A DNA stretch of 64,000 nucleotides, taken from Prochlorococcus sp. AG-355-P16 (GTDB lineage: Bacteria; Cyanobacteriota; Cyanobacteriia; PCC-6307; Cyanobiaceae). A program made the position numbers and the translations under genes. A model generated the notes under the pieces. It had not been told where the DNA came from. It did not search any database and was given only the letters and a program-made list of their open reading frames with translations. How positions within the stretch are numbered: position 1 is the first letter of the stretch; the number at the start of each line of letters is the position of its first letter. Positions 43,240 to 47,709 of this stretch are shown in pieces. The DNA is taken from positions 62,001-126,000 of the forward strand of contig QCEQ01000002.1 of NCBI GenBank assembly GCA_003278525.1, given 5' to 3'.

Positions 43240-43326
43240 CGGAGGGGGTGGGATTCGAACCCACGGTGCCCTTGCAGACACGCTAGTTTTCAAGACTAGA
43301 GCCTTAAACCACTCGACCACCCCTCC
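43240..43326 (-). tRNA. tRNA-Ser (anticodon UGA)
   Basis: rc: GGAGGGGUGGUCGAGUGGUUUAAGGCUCUAGUCUUGAAAACUAGCGUGUCUGCAAGGGCACCGUGGGUUCGAAUCCCACCCCCUCC; long variable arm, T-loop UUCGAAU, loop CUUGAAA. Confidence 0.95.
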
Positions 43327-43533: not shown

Positions 43534-43806
43534 ATGCTTTACGTTCAACATTGGTCATTTAAGACTGGATATCATCAAAAAGGTGCGGAAAAATTTCTTG
43601 GTGGAGGCGGAGATTATCCTGGAGTTGAGATGATTGGAAGATATCATGCTCCAGGATCGCTAGAAGGGTGGATAGTCTTAAAAACAGATAATCCAAAAGC
43701 AATATATCAGCATGCAGCTGAATGGGGTGAATTCCTTAATTGGGAAACCACACCGGTATTTACTGATGAAGAAGCTGGTCCAATAGTCGCCAAAGTCTAC
43801 TCATAG
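43534..43806 (+). CDS. DUF3303-family small protein
   Basis: 'MLYVQHWSFKTGYHQKGAEKFLGGGGDYPGVEMIGRYHAPGSLEGWIVLKTD'. Confidence 0.75.
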   Translation: MLYVQHWSFKTGYHQKGAEKFLGGGGDYPGVEMIGRYHAPGSLEGWIVLKTDNPKAIYQHAAEWGEFLNWETTPVFTDEEAGPIVAKVYS

Positions 43807-43831
43807 TTAATGATTGAAATTTGATTTACAG

Positions 43832-43856
43832 TAAGGAGCAATTAGCTCCTTTTTTT
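43832..43856 (+). terminator. Intrinsic terminator-like hairpin abutting next start codon
   Basis: AAGGAGC-AATTA-GCTCCTT followed by TTTTTT, ATG at 43857. Confidence 0.75.
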
Positions 43857-44117
43857 ATGAACACACTCATCATTTCAACTTTTAGTTGCACTTTTGAAGA
43901 ATTCAAAACCGACGTTTCTGGATTTATAACAGCAATGGGTCAAGAAGTAGTTTCAAAATATGAGTTTGTACAAGCGGGCGAACATAAATCTCATTTACTT
44001 ATGAACGTCCTAGATATGGAAGCACTTGAAGCTGAAATGACTTCAGATACAGCTAAAGAGTGGGACAAAAAAAATAATTGTAAGGATACCATCTATGTAA
44101 TTGAGCTTGTTGAATAA
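43857..44117 (+). CDS. DUF3764-family small protein (start refined from track 43821)
   Basis: 'MNTLIISTFSCTFEEFKTDVSGFITAMGQEVVSKYEFVQAGEHKSHLLMNVLDMEALEAEM'. Confidence 0.75.
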   Translation: MNTLIISTFSCTFEEFKTDVSGFITAMGQEVVSKYEFVQAGEHKSHLLMNVLDMEALEAEMTSDTAKEWDKKNNCKDTIYVIELVE

Positions 44118-44140: not shown

Positions 44141-44290
44141 CTATCCGAAATTCACGTTTTCTTGGAATAAACCAAATAAGTTGTTACCGACTATGGCAGC
44201 AATTATTAAAACAAATGCAACTATAGCAAAAAGAGCACTTACATCTTTTATGTCATAAGGTGCTTTAAATAAAGGTTTCTGGTCTGCCAT
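44141..44290 (-). CDS. 49-aa single-TM small protein not in ORF track
   Basis: Own translation: MADQKPLFKAPYDIKDVSALFAIVAFVLIIAAIVGNNLFGLFQENVNFG*. Confidence 0.65.
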   Translation of the reverse strand: MADQKPLFKAPYDIKDVSALFAIVAFVLIIAAIVGNNLFGLFQENVNFG

Positions 44291-44376: not shown

Positions 44377-44407
44377 TAAAAAAGCCACTAAAAGTGGCTT
44401 TTTTTTA
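44377..44407. terminator. Bidirectional-looking intrinsic terminator
   Basis: AAAAAA-AGCCACT-AAA-AGTGGCT-TTTTTTT; lies just downstream of the 33-aa peptide on the minus strand. Confidence 0.85.
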
Positions 44408-44423: not shown

Positions 44424-44525
44424 CTAACTTGTATAAGCTTTGCCTCTGTAGGTAAGTTCGTTATGCTGCTTCTTAGCAACTTCTTTGTTCTGGACGTACT
44501 TTTGTCCTCTGTAAATTAGAGTCAT
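44424..44525 (-). CDS. 33-aa DUF4278-like peptide downstream of putative glutamine-II riboswitch; not in ORF track
   Basis: Own translation: MTLIYRGQKYVQNKEVAKKQHNELTYRGKAYTS*; two internal YRG..Y motifs. Confidence 0.8.
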   Translation of the reverse strand: MTLIYRGQKYVQNKEVAKKQHNELTYRGKAYTS

Positions 44526-44543
44526 TTTTTTAGCTCCGGTTTC

Positions 44544-44605
44544 GCTTAAGTCCCCGTTCCATGGCCTAAGTCGATTTGCGGCTTGCTACAAGCAAGTTGA
44601 ACGTT
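44544..44605 (-). ncRNA. Putative glutamine-II ('downstream-peptide') riboswitch leader
   Basis: rc: ACGUUCAA-CUUGC-UUGUA-GCAAG-CCGCAAAUCGACUUAGGCCAUGGAACGGGGACUUAAGC; P1 CGUUC/GAACG, P2 CUUGC/GCAAG, pseudoknot CUUAGG/CUUAAG. Confidence 0.65.
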
Positions 44606-44829
44606 TTGGTAGCGGTTGCTACAAAATTATACTAACATTAAGTAAAACTAATTGTCTAGATCTTTAATAAATAAACTTAATACTTTAATAATGAAGCAGG
44701 CACTTACTAAAAAATTTATCTTTTTCTTTGTATAGTTTCTTACAGGTTACATTTTGTTCGTTTTTGAGAAGTATTTTTTTTTTAATGAACTTTTAAATGT
44801 AAAATTCTTAAGATTATAAAATTTGTTTT

Positions 44830-45024
44830 ATGTTTTCTAGAAGCAAAAAACCTACAGTAAAAAAATCCGCAATAGTTGAAGAGACTCCATTATTTGCCCA
44901 ATTATTACCATTCGCAAACAGGATGAATGATAAGGTTCAATTGGTAAATGCTCTGGCTTTTACTTTTATTATGGGATTCTCAATTTTTGGAATTGCTCTA
45001 TGGAAACTATCAGGGCTGACCTAA
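44830..45024 (+). CDS. Hypothetical single-TM small protein
   Basis: 'NRMNDKVQLVNALAFTFIMGFSIFGIALWKLSG'. Confidence 0.55.
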   Translation: MFSRSKKPTVKKSAIVEETPLFAQLLPFANRMNDKVQLVNALAFTFIMGFSIFGIALWKLSGLT

Positions 45025-45375: not shown

Positions 45376-47709
45376 TTAATCTTTTGGTTTAGCAAGAGGA
45401 AGCAAGCATTTATCTGAATCACAACCCGCTGGTCCTGCTTCAGATAGTTCTCCAACATCATATTTATTAAGAGCGTCAAAGAAATCGTTATTGACTTTCC
45501 TTTCAATTACTTTATTCTGCAATGATATATATTCCTCTTTACTTATTGGTTCAAAGGGTAATCTCGGGAAAGTAGCGTTAGCACTAAATCTAGCCAGCAA
45601 TGCTGCTGAAATATATCCCTCATTATTTTCTATTGCATTATGAATAGCCTTAGCTAAATCCTCGATTTCATTTTCTCTAAATTCTACGGTTGCAGAGGTA
45701 TTATGCTCTGTGTAAAATTTCTGCACTTGCATGTAAAAATCAAATTGAGCTAATGCTGAGAAATTATTGATGTCTATTTGGTCTGCGCCGTCTATATTTG
45801 CCCAACTAACTTCTGTAGGGATTTCAACTAACCATTCTGTACATCTTGGATCAAATGGATTATCGAGCAAGCAACCATTTTCATCTTTATCAGATTGAGA
45901 TGGAACAACTGAGTAACCATAATCCATGCAAGCTAAAGCGATTGGGTCATTTTTCCTGAAAGTTATTCTTCTTATGAATCTTTGAGCCTTTGGAGGATGC
46001 CAACCTGGAGCTGCTCCAGTAAGAAGACTTTTAGTTCCAGCTGGCTGAACTGTTGTGCATCTATTTGGTCTCCTTAGATTATGCTTATCACAATATTCCC
46101 ATATAGTATCTTTTACTATTTTTCTCCAAGAATCTAAGAATTTAGCTTCCTTTTCTTTGAAGGCCTTCCCTTCTTCGCTATTTGGCCTTCCTGCTTCCCA
46201 CCATTTCAACCATGGTGTCCCAAAGGCATGGACACAAAAATCAAATAATCCAGTGAAACTTACTCCTACGATAGGATCATATTCCCTACTTTTTCTGTAA
46301 CGCTCAACTTCAAATTCATGATTAAGTAAGCATGCTACAGAAAGAGCGGCTGCTTTAAAAGCTTTCTTTTGCTCTTCAAAATTTCCTGGATCAATCTGAT
46401 TTAAATGAACTTCAGCTAAATTGCAATGGAAATCATTTCCCAAGATCTCCCCACAAGGGTTAAGTCCATATCGGCTCATCCTGTGGTCTAACTCTTCTTC
46501 TGAGAAAGGACCATAACTACTGTTTATCCAATTTCTCGCCTCATCCTTGCCTTGTTCTGAGTAGATTTCAATAAATTCCTTTCTTAATTCATCATCTTTG
46601 AGAATATCTGCATTTGACCTTGCGATTGCTTCTGGTGCAAATTGAATAGCTCCCTCACCTGAATGGAATTGTTTTGTTACTGCATCCAAAACAGTTTGGT
46701 AAGTGGGTTTTGTATGGTAAACCCTAGTATGATTGGCCATTCTGAGGGCATCTTTTTCAGGATCTATTCTCCAATTACCATTCTCATCTTGACTCCATAA
46801 ATTTTCTTTTGCTGATGCGGCTTCCTTATCATCTGAAGCAAATTGTCTCATTCCAGCACTTCTTCTTATATTCCCAGCAACTATGGTTACTGCAGCTTCA
46901 TCAATTAATAAACAACACTCTACTGTACTTAATTTCCTACCAATTGCCTTTCCAAGAAGTGATGCGACTCTAGAGTAAAGATCTTTCAATTTGATAGGAT
47001 TTGCCATACCACCAAAACCTTTTAATGATTCTCCCGCAGGCCTAATATCTTCCAAATCAATATAAACATCAATTTCTCTTTCAAGACTCTCGTTACTTGA
47101 TGCCTCAAGAAGATATTTATAGCTGTCTACCCATCCTCTTCTGCTATCTCCAACTTTGATATGAAGATCTTTTCCTTTAATTTCTAATGATGACTTTTCT
47201 TCTCTTTTGTCTTTAGGAGTTATTCCAACTTCACTGACTGATTTAATGTTTATTTTGTTAATTACCGTAGGTAGATTATTTATAAAATGAGGCTCAATTA
47301 TTGCACCTGTTCCACATCCCATCATTGCTAAGTCCATCATTAATGCGAAGGCTTCCCAATCAATTAAGTTTGTTGAGGTACAGTTGTATGCTCCTGAGAA
47401 ATTTTGGTTCTTATTAATCCAAGGGGTTCCGCCTATCCATAACCATCTTCCTGAAGGTTGAGCTTTTTGGTTACTTTGCATCTCTCTCATTAGGATTAAT
47501 TCTTCTTCAGAAAGTTTTCCTAATTCTTTTAATCCCGATAAATTCCTTTGGCCTACTTCGCTCCAGTTCTCCCTTTTGCCAGATGAAGTTTTTCTACTAT
47601 AAGATCTGAAAAAAACTGGGTAAGCAGCTGGAGCAGTCTTTGGAAAATCATCTTTTTTAAGATTATTGGAATTGCTCTCTGAAGAAGCTTTATTTGGTGC
47701 AACAGTCAC
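45376..47709 (-). CDS. nrdJ: Adenosylcobalamin-dependent (class II) ribonucleotide reductase
   Basis: 'NPCGEILGNDFHCNLAEV', 'QPAGTKSLLTGAAPGWHPPKAQRFIRRITF', C-term Cys pair 'CDSDKCLLP'. Confidence 0.93.
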   Translation of the reverse strand: MTVAPNKASSESNSNNLKKDDFPKTAPAAYPVFFRSYSRKTSSGKRENWSEVGQRNLSGLKELGKLSEEELILMREMQSNQKAQPSGRWLWIGGTPWINKNQNFSGAYNCTSTNLIDWEAFALMMDLAMMGCGTGAIIEPHFINNLPTVINKINIKSVSEVGITPKDKREEKSSLEIKGKDLHIKVGDSRRGWVDSYKYLLEASSNESLEREIDVYIDLEDIRPAGESLKGFGGMANPIKLKDLYSRVASLLGKAIGRKLSTVECCLLIDEAAVTIVAGNIRRSAGMRQFASDDKEAASAKENLWSQDENGNWRIDPEKDALRMANHTRVYHTKPTYQTVLDAVTKQFHSGEGAIQFAPEAIARSNADILKDDELRKEFIEIYSEQGKDEARNWINSSYGPFSEEELDHRMSRYGLNPCGEILGNDFHCNLAEVHLNQIDPGNFEEQKKAFKAAALSVACLLNHEFEVERYRKSREYDPIVGVSFTGLFDFCVHAFGTPWLKWWEAGRPNSEEGKAFKEKEAKFLDSWRKIVKDTIWEYCDKHNLRRPNRCTTVQPAGTKSLLTGAAPGWHPPKAQRFIRRITFRKNDPIALACMDYGYSVVPSQSDKDENGCLLDNPFDPRCTEWLVEIPTEVSWANIDGADQIDINNFSALAQFDFYMQVQKFYTEHNTSATVEFRENEIEDLAKAIHNAIENNEGYISAALLARFSANATFPRLPFEPISKEEYISLQNKVIERKVNNDFFDALNKYDVGELSEAGPAGCDSDKCLLPLAKPKD

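Follow-up and report, generated by a model that had tools for sequence, protein, structure and literature searches.

An orthologue of yfr6 in Prochlorococcus sp. AG-355-P16: a glutamine-II leader, a conserved 33-aa DUF4278 peptide and a candidate NtcA box

The window, by which we mean the whole 64,000 nt stretch of contig QCEQ01000002.1 of Prochlorococcus sp. AG-355-P16 that was analysed, has on its minus strand a compact cassette of promoter, glutamine-II leader, ORF for a 33-aa peptide and intrinsic terminator. It lies between tRNA-Ser (43240-43326) and a 777-aa ORF (45376-47709) that we take to be nrdJ in view of its sequence and the gene order in MED4. The features are as follows.

44653-44658, minus strand: -35-like TAGACA (from the sequence)
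44626-44631, minus strand: -10 element TATAAT of the yfr6 promoter (from the sequence)
44609-44622, minus strand: GTAGCAACCGCTAC, a GTAN8TAC pattern and putative NtcA-type box, +1 to +14 of the predicted transcript and also a 5-bp RNA hairpin
44545-44606, minus strand: glutamine-II aptamer, RF01704 (65.3 bits, E 1.6e-13)
44599-44603, minus strand: 5' strand CGUUC of the PK helix, pairing with 44555-44559 (paired in 68/68 aptamers)
44582-44596, minus strand: P1 hairpin CUUGC-UUGUA-GCAAG (4-7 bp in 68/68 aptamers)
44577-44581, minus strand: CCGCA, the conserved ls strand (CGCA) plus C44581, with CCG-CGG pairing in the predicted ligand-free fold; putative role
44565-44570, minus strand: 5' strand CUUAGG of P2 (97.5% paired)
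44555-44559, minus strand: 3' strand GAACG of the PK helix (paired in 68/68 aptamers)
44545-44550, minus strand: 3' strand CUUAAG of P2 (97.5% paired)
44534-44538, minus strand: Shine-Dalgarno CGGAG, 8 nt before the start codon (from the sequence)
44424-44525, minus strand: 33-aa DUF4278 peptide, the Yfr6 peptide (PF14105 32.7 bits; dN/dS 0.055)
44378-44404, minus strand: intrinsic terminator, 12-bp stem and U tract (-14.4 kcal/mol, z -4.9), with enough symmetry to act on the plus strand too

We identify the locus as the Prochlorococcus yfr6 orthologue because the leader length, the 33-aa ORF, the transcript length and the nrdJ/tRNA-Ser setting all agree with the description by Axmann (2005). 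In MED4 yfr6 is a 244-nt RNA that is encoded in the trnS-nrdJ region and whose 33-aa ORF begins at nt 97; its start has been mapped to the G after a TATA element, its half-life is about 2 min, and its signal was termed inconstant in the blots of 2005 (Axmann 2005, PMC1242208). With the start predicted from MED4 at G44622, there are 97 nt to the ATG and about 245 nt to the end of the terminator. The yfr6 leader was placed in the Downstream-peptide motif by Weinberg in 2010 (PMC2864571), and the Downstream-peptide aptamers are described as ON switches that respond to glutamine and are associated with DUF4278 genes (2018 review, PMC6316151). The initial annotation had implied that the cassette was new, and this does not stand: with yfr6 and its 33-aa ORF published in 2005, the link to the motif in 2010 and the association of glutamine-II with DUF4278 also reported, the riboswitch call is correct but already known.

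The call itself, made from the letters of the sequence, is well supported. RF01704 (Glutamine-II) matches at 44606-44545 on the minus strand with 65.3 bits, twice its gathering cut-off of 33 bits, over model positions 1-60, which is full length and not truncated. At curated cut-offs the Rfam scan of the whole window gave two matches, Glutamine-II and one tRNA, and there was no match at cut-off to glnA/Glutamine-I (RF01739). The strands that had been named are all exact: CGUUC with GAACG, the hairpin CUUGC-UUGUA-GCAAG, and CUUAGG with CUUAAG (one G-U pair). We use the published names for the helices, in which the PK helix was previously called P1, P1 was called P2, and P2 was called the pseudoknot. 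CGUUC/GAACG of PK crosses P2, with the P1 hairpin in between. The leader had also been described as GC-rich, and it has 48.5% GC compared with 31.3% for the window.

Conservation was followed in 68 distinct aptamer sequences from AG-355-P16 and related genomes, across which the strands of each helix either co-vary or remain paired. PK is paired in all 68, with one compensatory change from U-A to C-G, P1 has 13 different end-sequence combinations, and for P2 pairing holds in 97.5% of cells, whereas permuted partners give a mean of 85% and a maximum of 89%. The aptamer was said to lie upstream of a short ORF, and indeed the 33-aa ORF begins about 20 nt downstream. Of 400 genomes from the taxonomic family 284 contain Glutamine-II, and the AG-355-P16 genome has four copies. 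L-glutamine binding and ON behaviour have been reported for other members of glutamine-II (PMC6316151, PMC6698751).

The ORF at 44424-44525 (minus strand), which was found by the ORF lister, reads MTLIYRGQKYVQNKEVAKKQHNELTYRGKAYTS. Its earlier description as DUF4278-like holds, as it matches PF14105 with 32.7 bits against a cut-off of 25.3, over profile positions 1-34 of 57 only, and is conserved across orthologues. The aptamer precedes it in 69/69 orthologous loci, as judged by eye, and these loci gave 62 distinct CDS, every one of them with 33 codons. Mean dN is 0.045, mean dS 0.74 and median dN/dS 0.055, and third codon positions hold 70% of the coding differences. The invariant residues are M1, L3, YRG (5-7), QK (8-9), Y10, Q12, K14, KK (18-19), H21, L24, YRG (26-28), K29 and Y31. 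The peptide is thus under strong purifying selection. Among the 41 genus genomes that are at least 90% complete, 37 have a yfr6-grade match; as the other 4 are without one, the peptide is not essential. A phage origin, or copies in phages, was considered and set aside: in the phage collection the peptide matched only two records, at E 5, and blastn gave no match to the aptamer.

The surroundings of yfr6 have some features of their own. In each of the 70 orthologous loci compared the gene order is conserved and the flanking 64-aa and 88-aa genes are present. A block of strong conservation, CTTACAGGTTACATT, is on the plus strand at 44741-44755, in the divergent region that precedes the 64-aa gene (44830-45024), and may be the promoter of that gene. 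Downstream of yfr6 and on the same strand there is a 49-aa ORF with an ATG start (44141-44290) and a hydrophobic C-terminal half; a small ORF of 49-52 aa is conserved at this position in 67 of the 70 loci compared, and the 49-aa ORF has no family match. The segment between yfr6 and tRNA-Ser (43534-44117) is variable, the DUF3303 gene and 98-aa ORF found there being in 8-9 of 70 orthologous loci, many of which end too early to be judged fully.

In the case of the promoter, a pattern scan gave a TAGACA/TAGTAT pair with an 18-nt spacer, and CTAGACA and TATAA are well conserved in 69 orthologues. Between the -10 element and the aptamer, in the promoter region at 44609-44622 as for members of the NtcA regulon, is GTAGCAACCGCTAC, which is missing from the initial annotation. 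It has the form GTAN8TAC, which we take to be the NtcA consensus. Among 119 glutamine-II leaders from diverse genomes GTAN8TAC with exactly N8 is present in 112, with N7 in 1 and N9 in 0, and the mean for shuffled sequences is 0.9. NtcA motifs at core promoter elements repress gifA and gifB (review, PMC6316151), and the position of the box at the transcription start suggests that NtcA may likewise repress yfr6 through it. The reduced level of Yfr6 on nitrogen depletion in MED4 (PMC1242208) is consistent with NtcA binding and repression.

The conservation of GTAGCAACCGCTAC might instead be due to its being a hairpin at the 5' end of the RNA, for stability or as part of the switch, and not an NtcA operator. 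It is transcribed, provided that the MED4 start site applies here, it folds into a 5-bp hairpin of -5.7 kcal/mol, and two leaders without GTAN8TAC have a different hairpin (GTTGA...TCAAC and GTTGAG...CTCAAC). However a DNA palindrome will always yield an RNA hairpin, and the spacing is fixed at N8, although the loop of a hairpin could be of other lengths. In many leaders the fifth pair of the stem is not formed (14 have C-A), and co-variation adds little to the conservation of columns, with 95.0% paired as against 93.5% for permuted partners. We consider the hairpin reading unlikely, and have dropped the hairpin as an independent RNA element because its co-variation is weak and an NtcA palindrome is the better account.

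With regard to how the switch opens, the terminator that had been placed after the ORF is there, with the 12-bp stem and U tract listed above, and a terminator scan gave none between the aptamer and the start codon. As there is none in that interval, control of yfr6 is most likely translational, which fits the proposal made with the glutamine-II crystal structure (PMC6698751). An SD-like motif is present in 47 of 49 leaders of the HL type. In the free fold of the yfr6 leader the CCG at 44579-44581, which is part of the linker strand that contacts glutamine, pairs with the CGG of the ribosome-binding site (RBS) at 44536-44538, with a probability of 0.67-0.74. The classes HL, LL and long are our own labels, based on linker sequence and peptide length, and are not named strains. 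In three of four leader classes the linker-RBS pairing exceeds that of shuffled controls (HL 1.81 vs 1.05, LL 3.62 vs 1.70, long 5.36 vs 1.55), and in the mixed class it does not (2.02 vs 1.67). When the aptamer is locked in a simple folding model the RBS opens in 15 of 17 LL leaders, 27 of 30 long leaders and 16 of 49 HL leaders. The yfr6 leader of AG-355-P16 belongs to the HL class, and in this model its RBS is not freer with the aptamer locked. A swap of the linker between the glutamine pocket and the RBS is a hypothesis that the folding model supports better for the related leader classes than for yfr6. We also considered an OFF-state stem UUAAGC/GCUUAA around the Shine-Dalgarno sequence, which was seen in the consensus; it was rejected as it is broken in the sequence of the window itself and, as judged by eye, absent from deeper yfr6 lineages.

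Two sibling glutamine-II loci of AG-355-P16 also have small ORFs. A 56-aa protein, MNELSQIREKITRAKRLYEAQILATKNGEVTPYRR... (C1:44910-45077), is behind the glutamine-II riboswitch at C1:45093-45150 (L004 / L149). It has no Pfam or NCBIfam match above cut-off, its leader is without the GTAN8TAC box, and homologues are present in 27 of 37 genus genomes and, in our sample, in none outside the genus. The other is a second 33-aa peptide, MVNMYFNGKSFVYCRKQEEKVIKLTYRGSIYLK, under the glutamine-II leader at C1:32146-32208 (L003), in which only the second motif is YRG, and which has no Pfam match.

An NtcA-type box and a riboswitch together would put two nitrogen inputs on one tiny gene, as for gifB, and we infer a two-input control of yfr6, with NtcA acting on transcription and glutamine on translation. 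When nitrogen is short NtcA on the box at the start site would block transcription of yfr6, and when it is ample NtcA would leave the box and yfr6 would be transcribed. Glutamine would then make the PK helix fold in the leader as it is transcribed, which would free the ribosome-binding site, and peptide would be made only at low 2-oxoglutarate and high glutamine. The peptide would most likely be a small effector of nitrogen surplus, binding a partner and in this way damping ammonium assimilation, a step that we propose because of DUF4278 and the parallel with gifB only. Taken as a whole, we think it very probable that yfr6 is an mRNA of about 245 nt, comprising glutamine-II leader, 33-aa DUF4278 CDS and terminator, with a proposed gate by NtcA and glutamine and a putative nitrogen-surplus effector as its product.

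A quite different role would be that of a regulatory RNA, dual-function and RNAIII-like, or of a toxin mRNA paired with antisense Yfr14, with the peptide being secondary. This takes up a published suggestion that Yfr14 is antisense to Yfr6 in MED4, where it rises early in phage infection (Steglich 2008, PMC2518516). However the excess of third-position differences and the low dN/dS given above mean that selection acts on the peptide, and the leader is a riboswitch for a metabolite, in an arrangement that recurs before paralogous peptides. We regard both the mainly regulatory RNA and the toxin mRNA as very improbable. Projected from MED4 (627811-628062), Yfr14 would span 44461-44712 and hence the beginning of the peptide gene together with the aptamer; by eye, no conserved promoter for Yfr14 was evident. 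Returning to the peptide as effector, its repeated YRG motif and extreme conservation suggest that it binds a protein. It could be thought a genuine inactivating factor of glutamine synthetase like IF7 and IF17, as DUF4278 is reported to be the N-terminal part of IF17, and the inputs to yfr6, glutamine switch and NtcA-type box, are the two that gifB has. However that N-terminal part is reported to be dispensable for inhibition of glutamine synthetase, the inhibitory part, which resembles IF7, being at the C-terminus (PMC6316151), and a direct inhibitor of the IF type is therefore not our default reading. The 33-aa peptide ends after matching DUF4278 positions 1-34, which leaves no room for an IF7-like C-terminal part, and none is present as judged by length and profile. 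A genuine inactivating factor seems to us improbable.

It is possible, if on balance doubtful, that the peptide is the output of an NtcA-off AND glutamine-on gate used by picocyanobacteria in place of IF7/IF17, that by way of its two YRG motifs it acts on glutamine synthetase, on PII or on some other nitrogen protein, and that the sister leader classes are gated by the linker-strand swap between glutamine pocket and RBS. How marine picocyanobacteria control glutamine synthetase is unclear according to the 2018 review (PMC6316151), and the Yfr6 peptide offers a compact case in which to test this, being a protein of 33 aa that is under purifying selection and whose gene nearly always has both a glutamine switch and an NtcA-type box. 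The locus is old and what we add is modest, namely the NtcA-type box, the coding statistics and the sibling loci; the point of interest is the partner of the peptide.

In comparison with known systems, the leader is a full-length match to RF01704, with the same PK, P1 and P2 and the conserved CGCA linker strand, and differs in having A-C at the base of P1, which frees a C beside the linker strand, a feature shared by other leaders of the yfr6 type. With yfr6 of MED4 and SS120 (PMC1242208, PMC2518516) it shares the 33-aa ORF, the leader of about 97 nt, the RNA of about 244 nt, the trnS-nrdJ setting and the -10 element followed by a G start. Nothing of substance differs from MED4 yfr6, and we have here its orthologue in another genome; on the trnS side there is a DNA-ligase fragment in MED4 and the DUF3303 gene and 98-aa ORF in AG-355-P16. 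PMM1846 of MED4 is also a DUF4278 protein with a glutamine-II leader, and has a reported NtcA motif in its promoter, but at 7 kDa is longer than the Yfr6 peptide; it is likely to be related to a 57-aa paralogue in AG-355-P16. In the case of gifB/IF17 of Synechocystis the aptamer is type 1 (glutamine-I), whereas that of yfr6 is type 2, and IF17 has an IF7-like C-terminal part that the Yfr6 peptide does not, but both genes encode a small DUF4278 protein behind a glutamine riboswitch leader, with an NtcA-type box at the core promoter.
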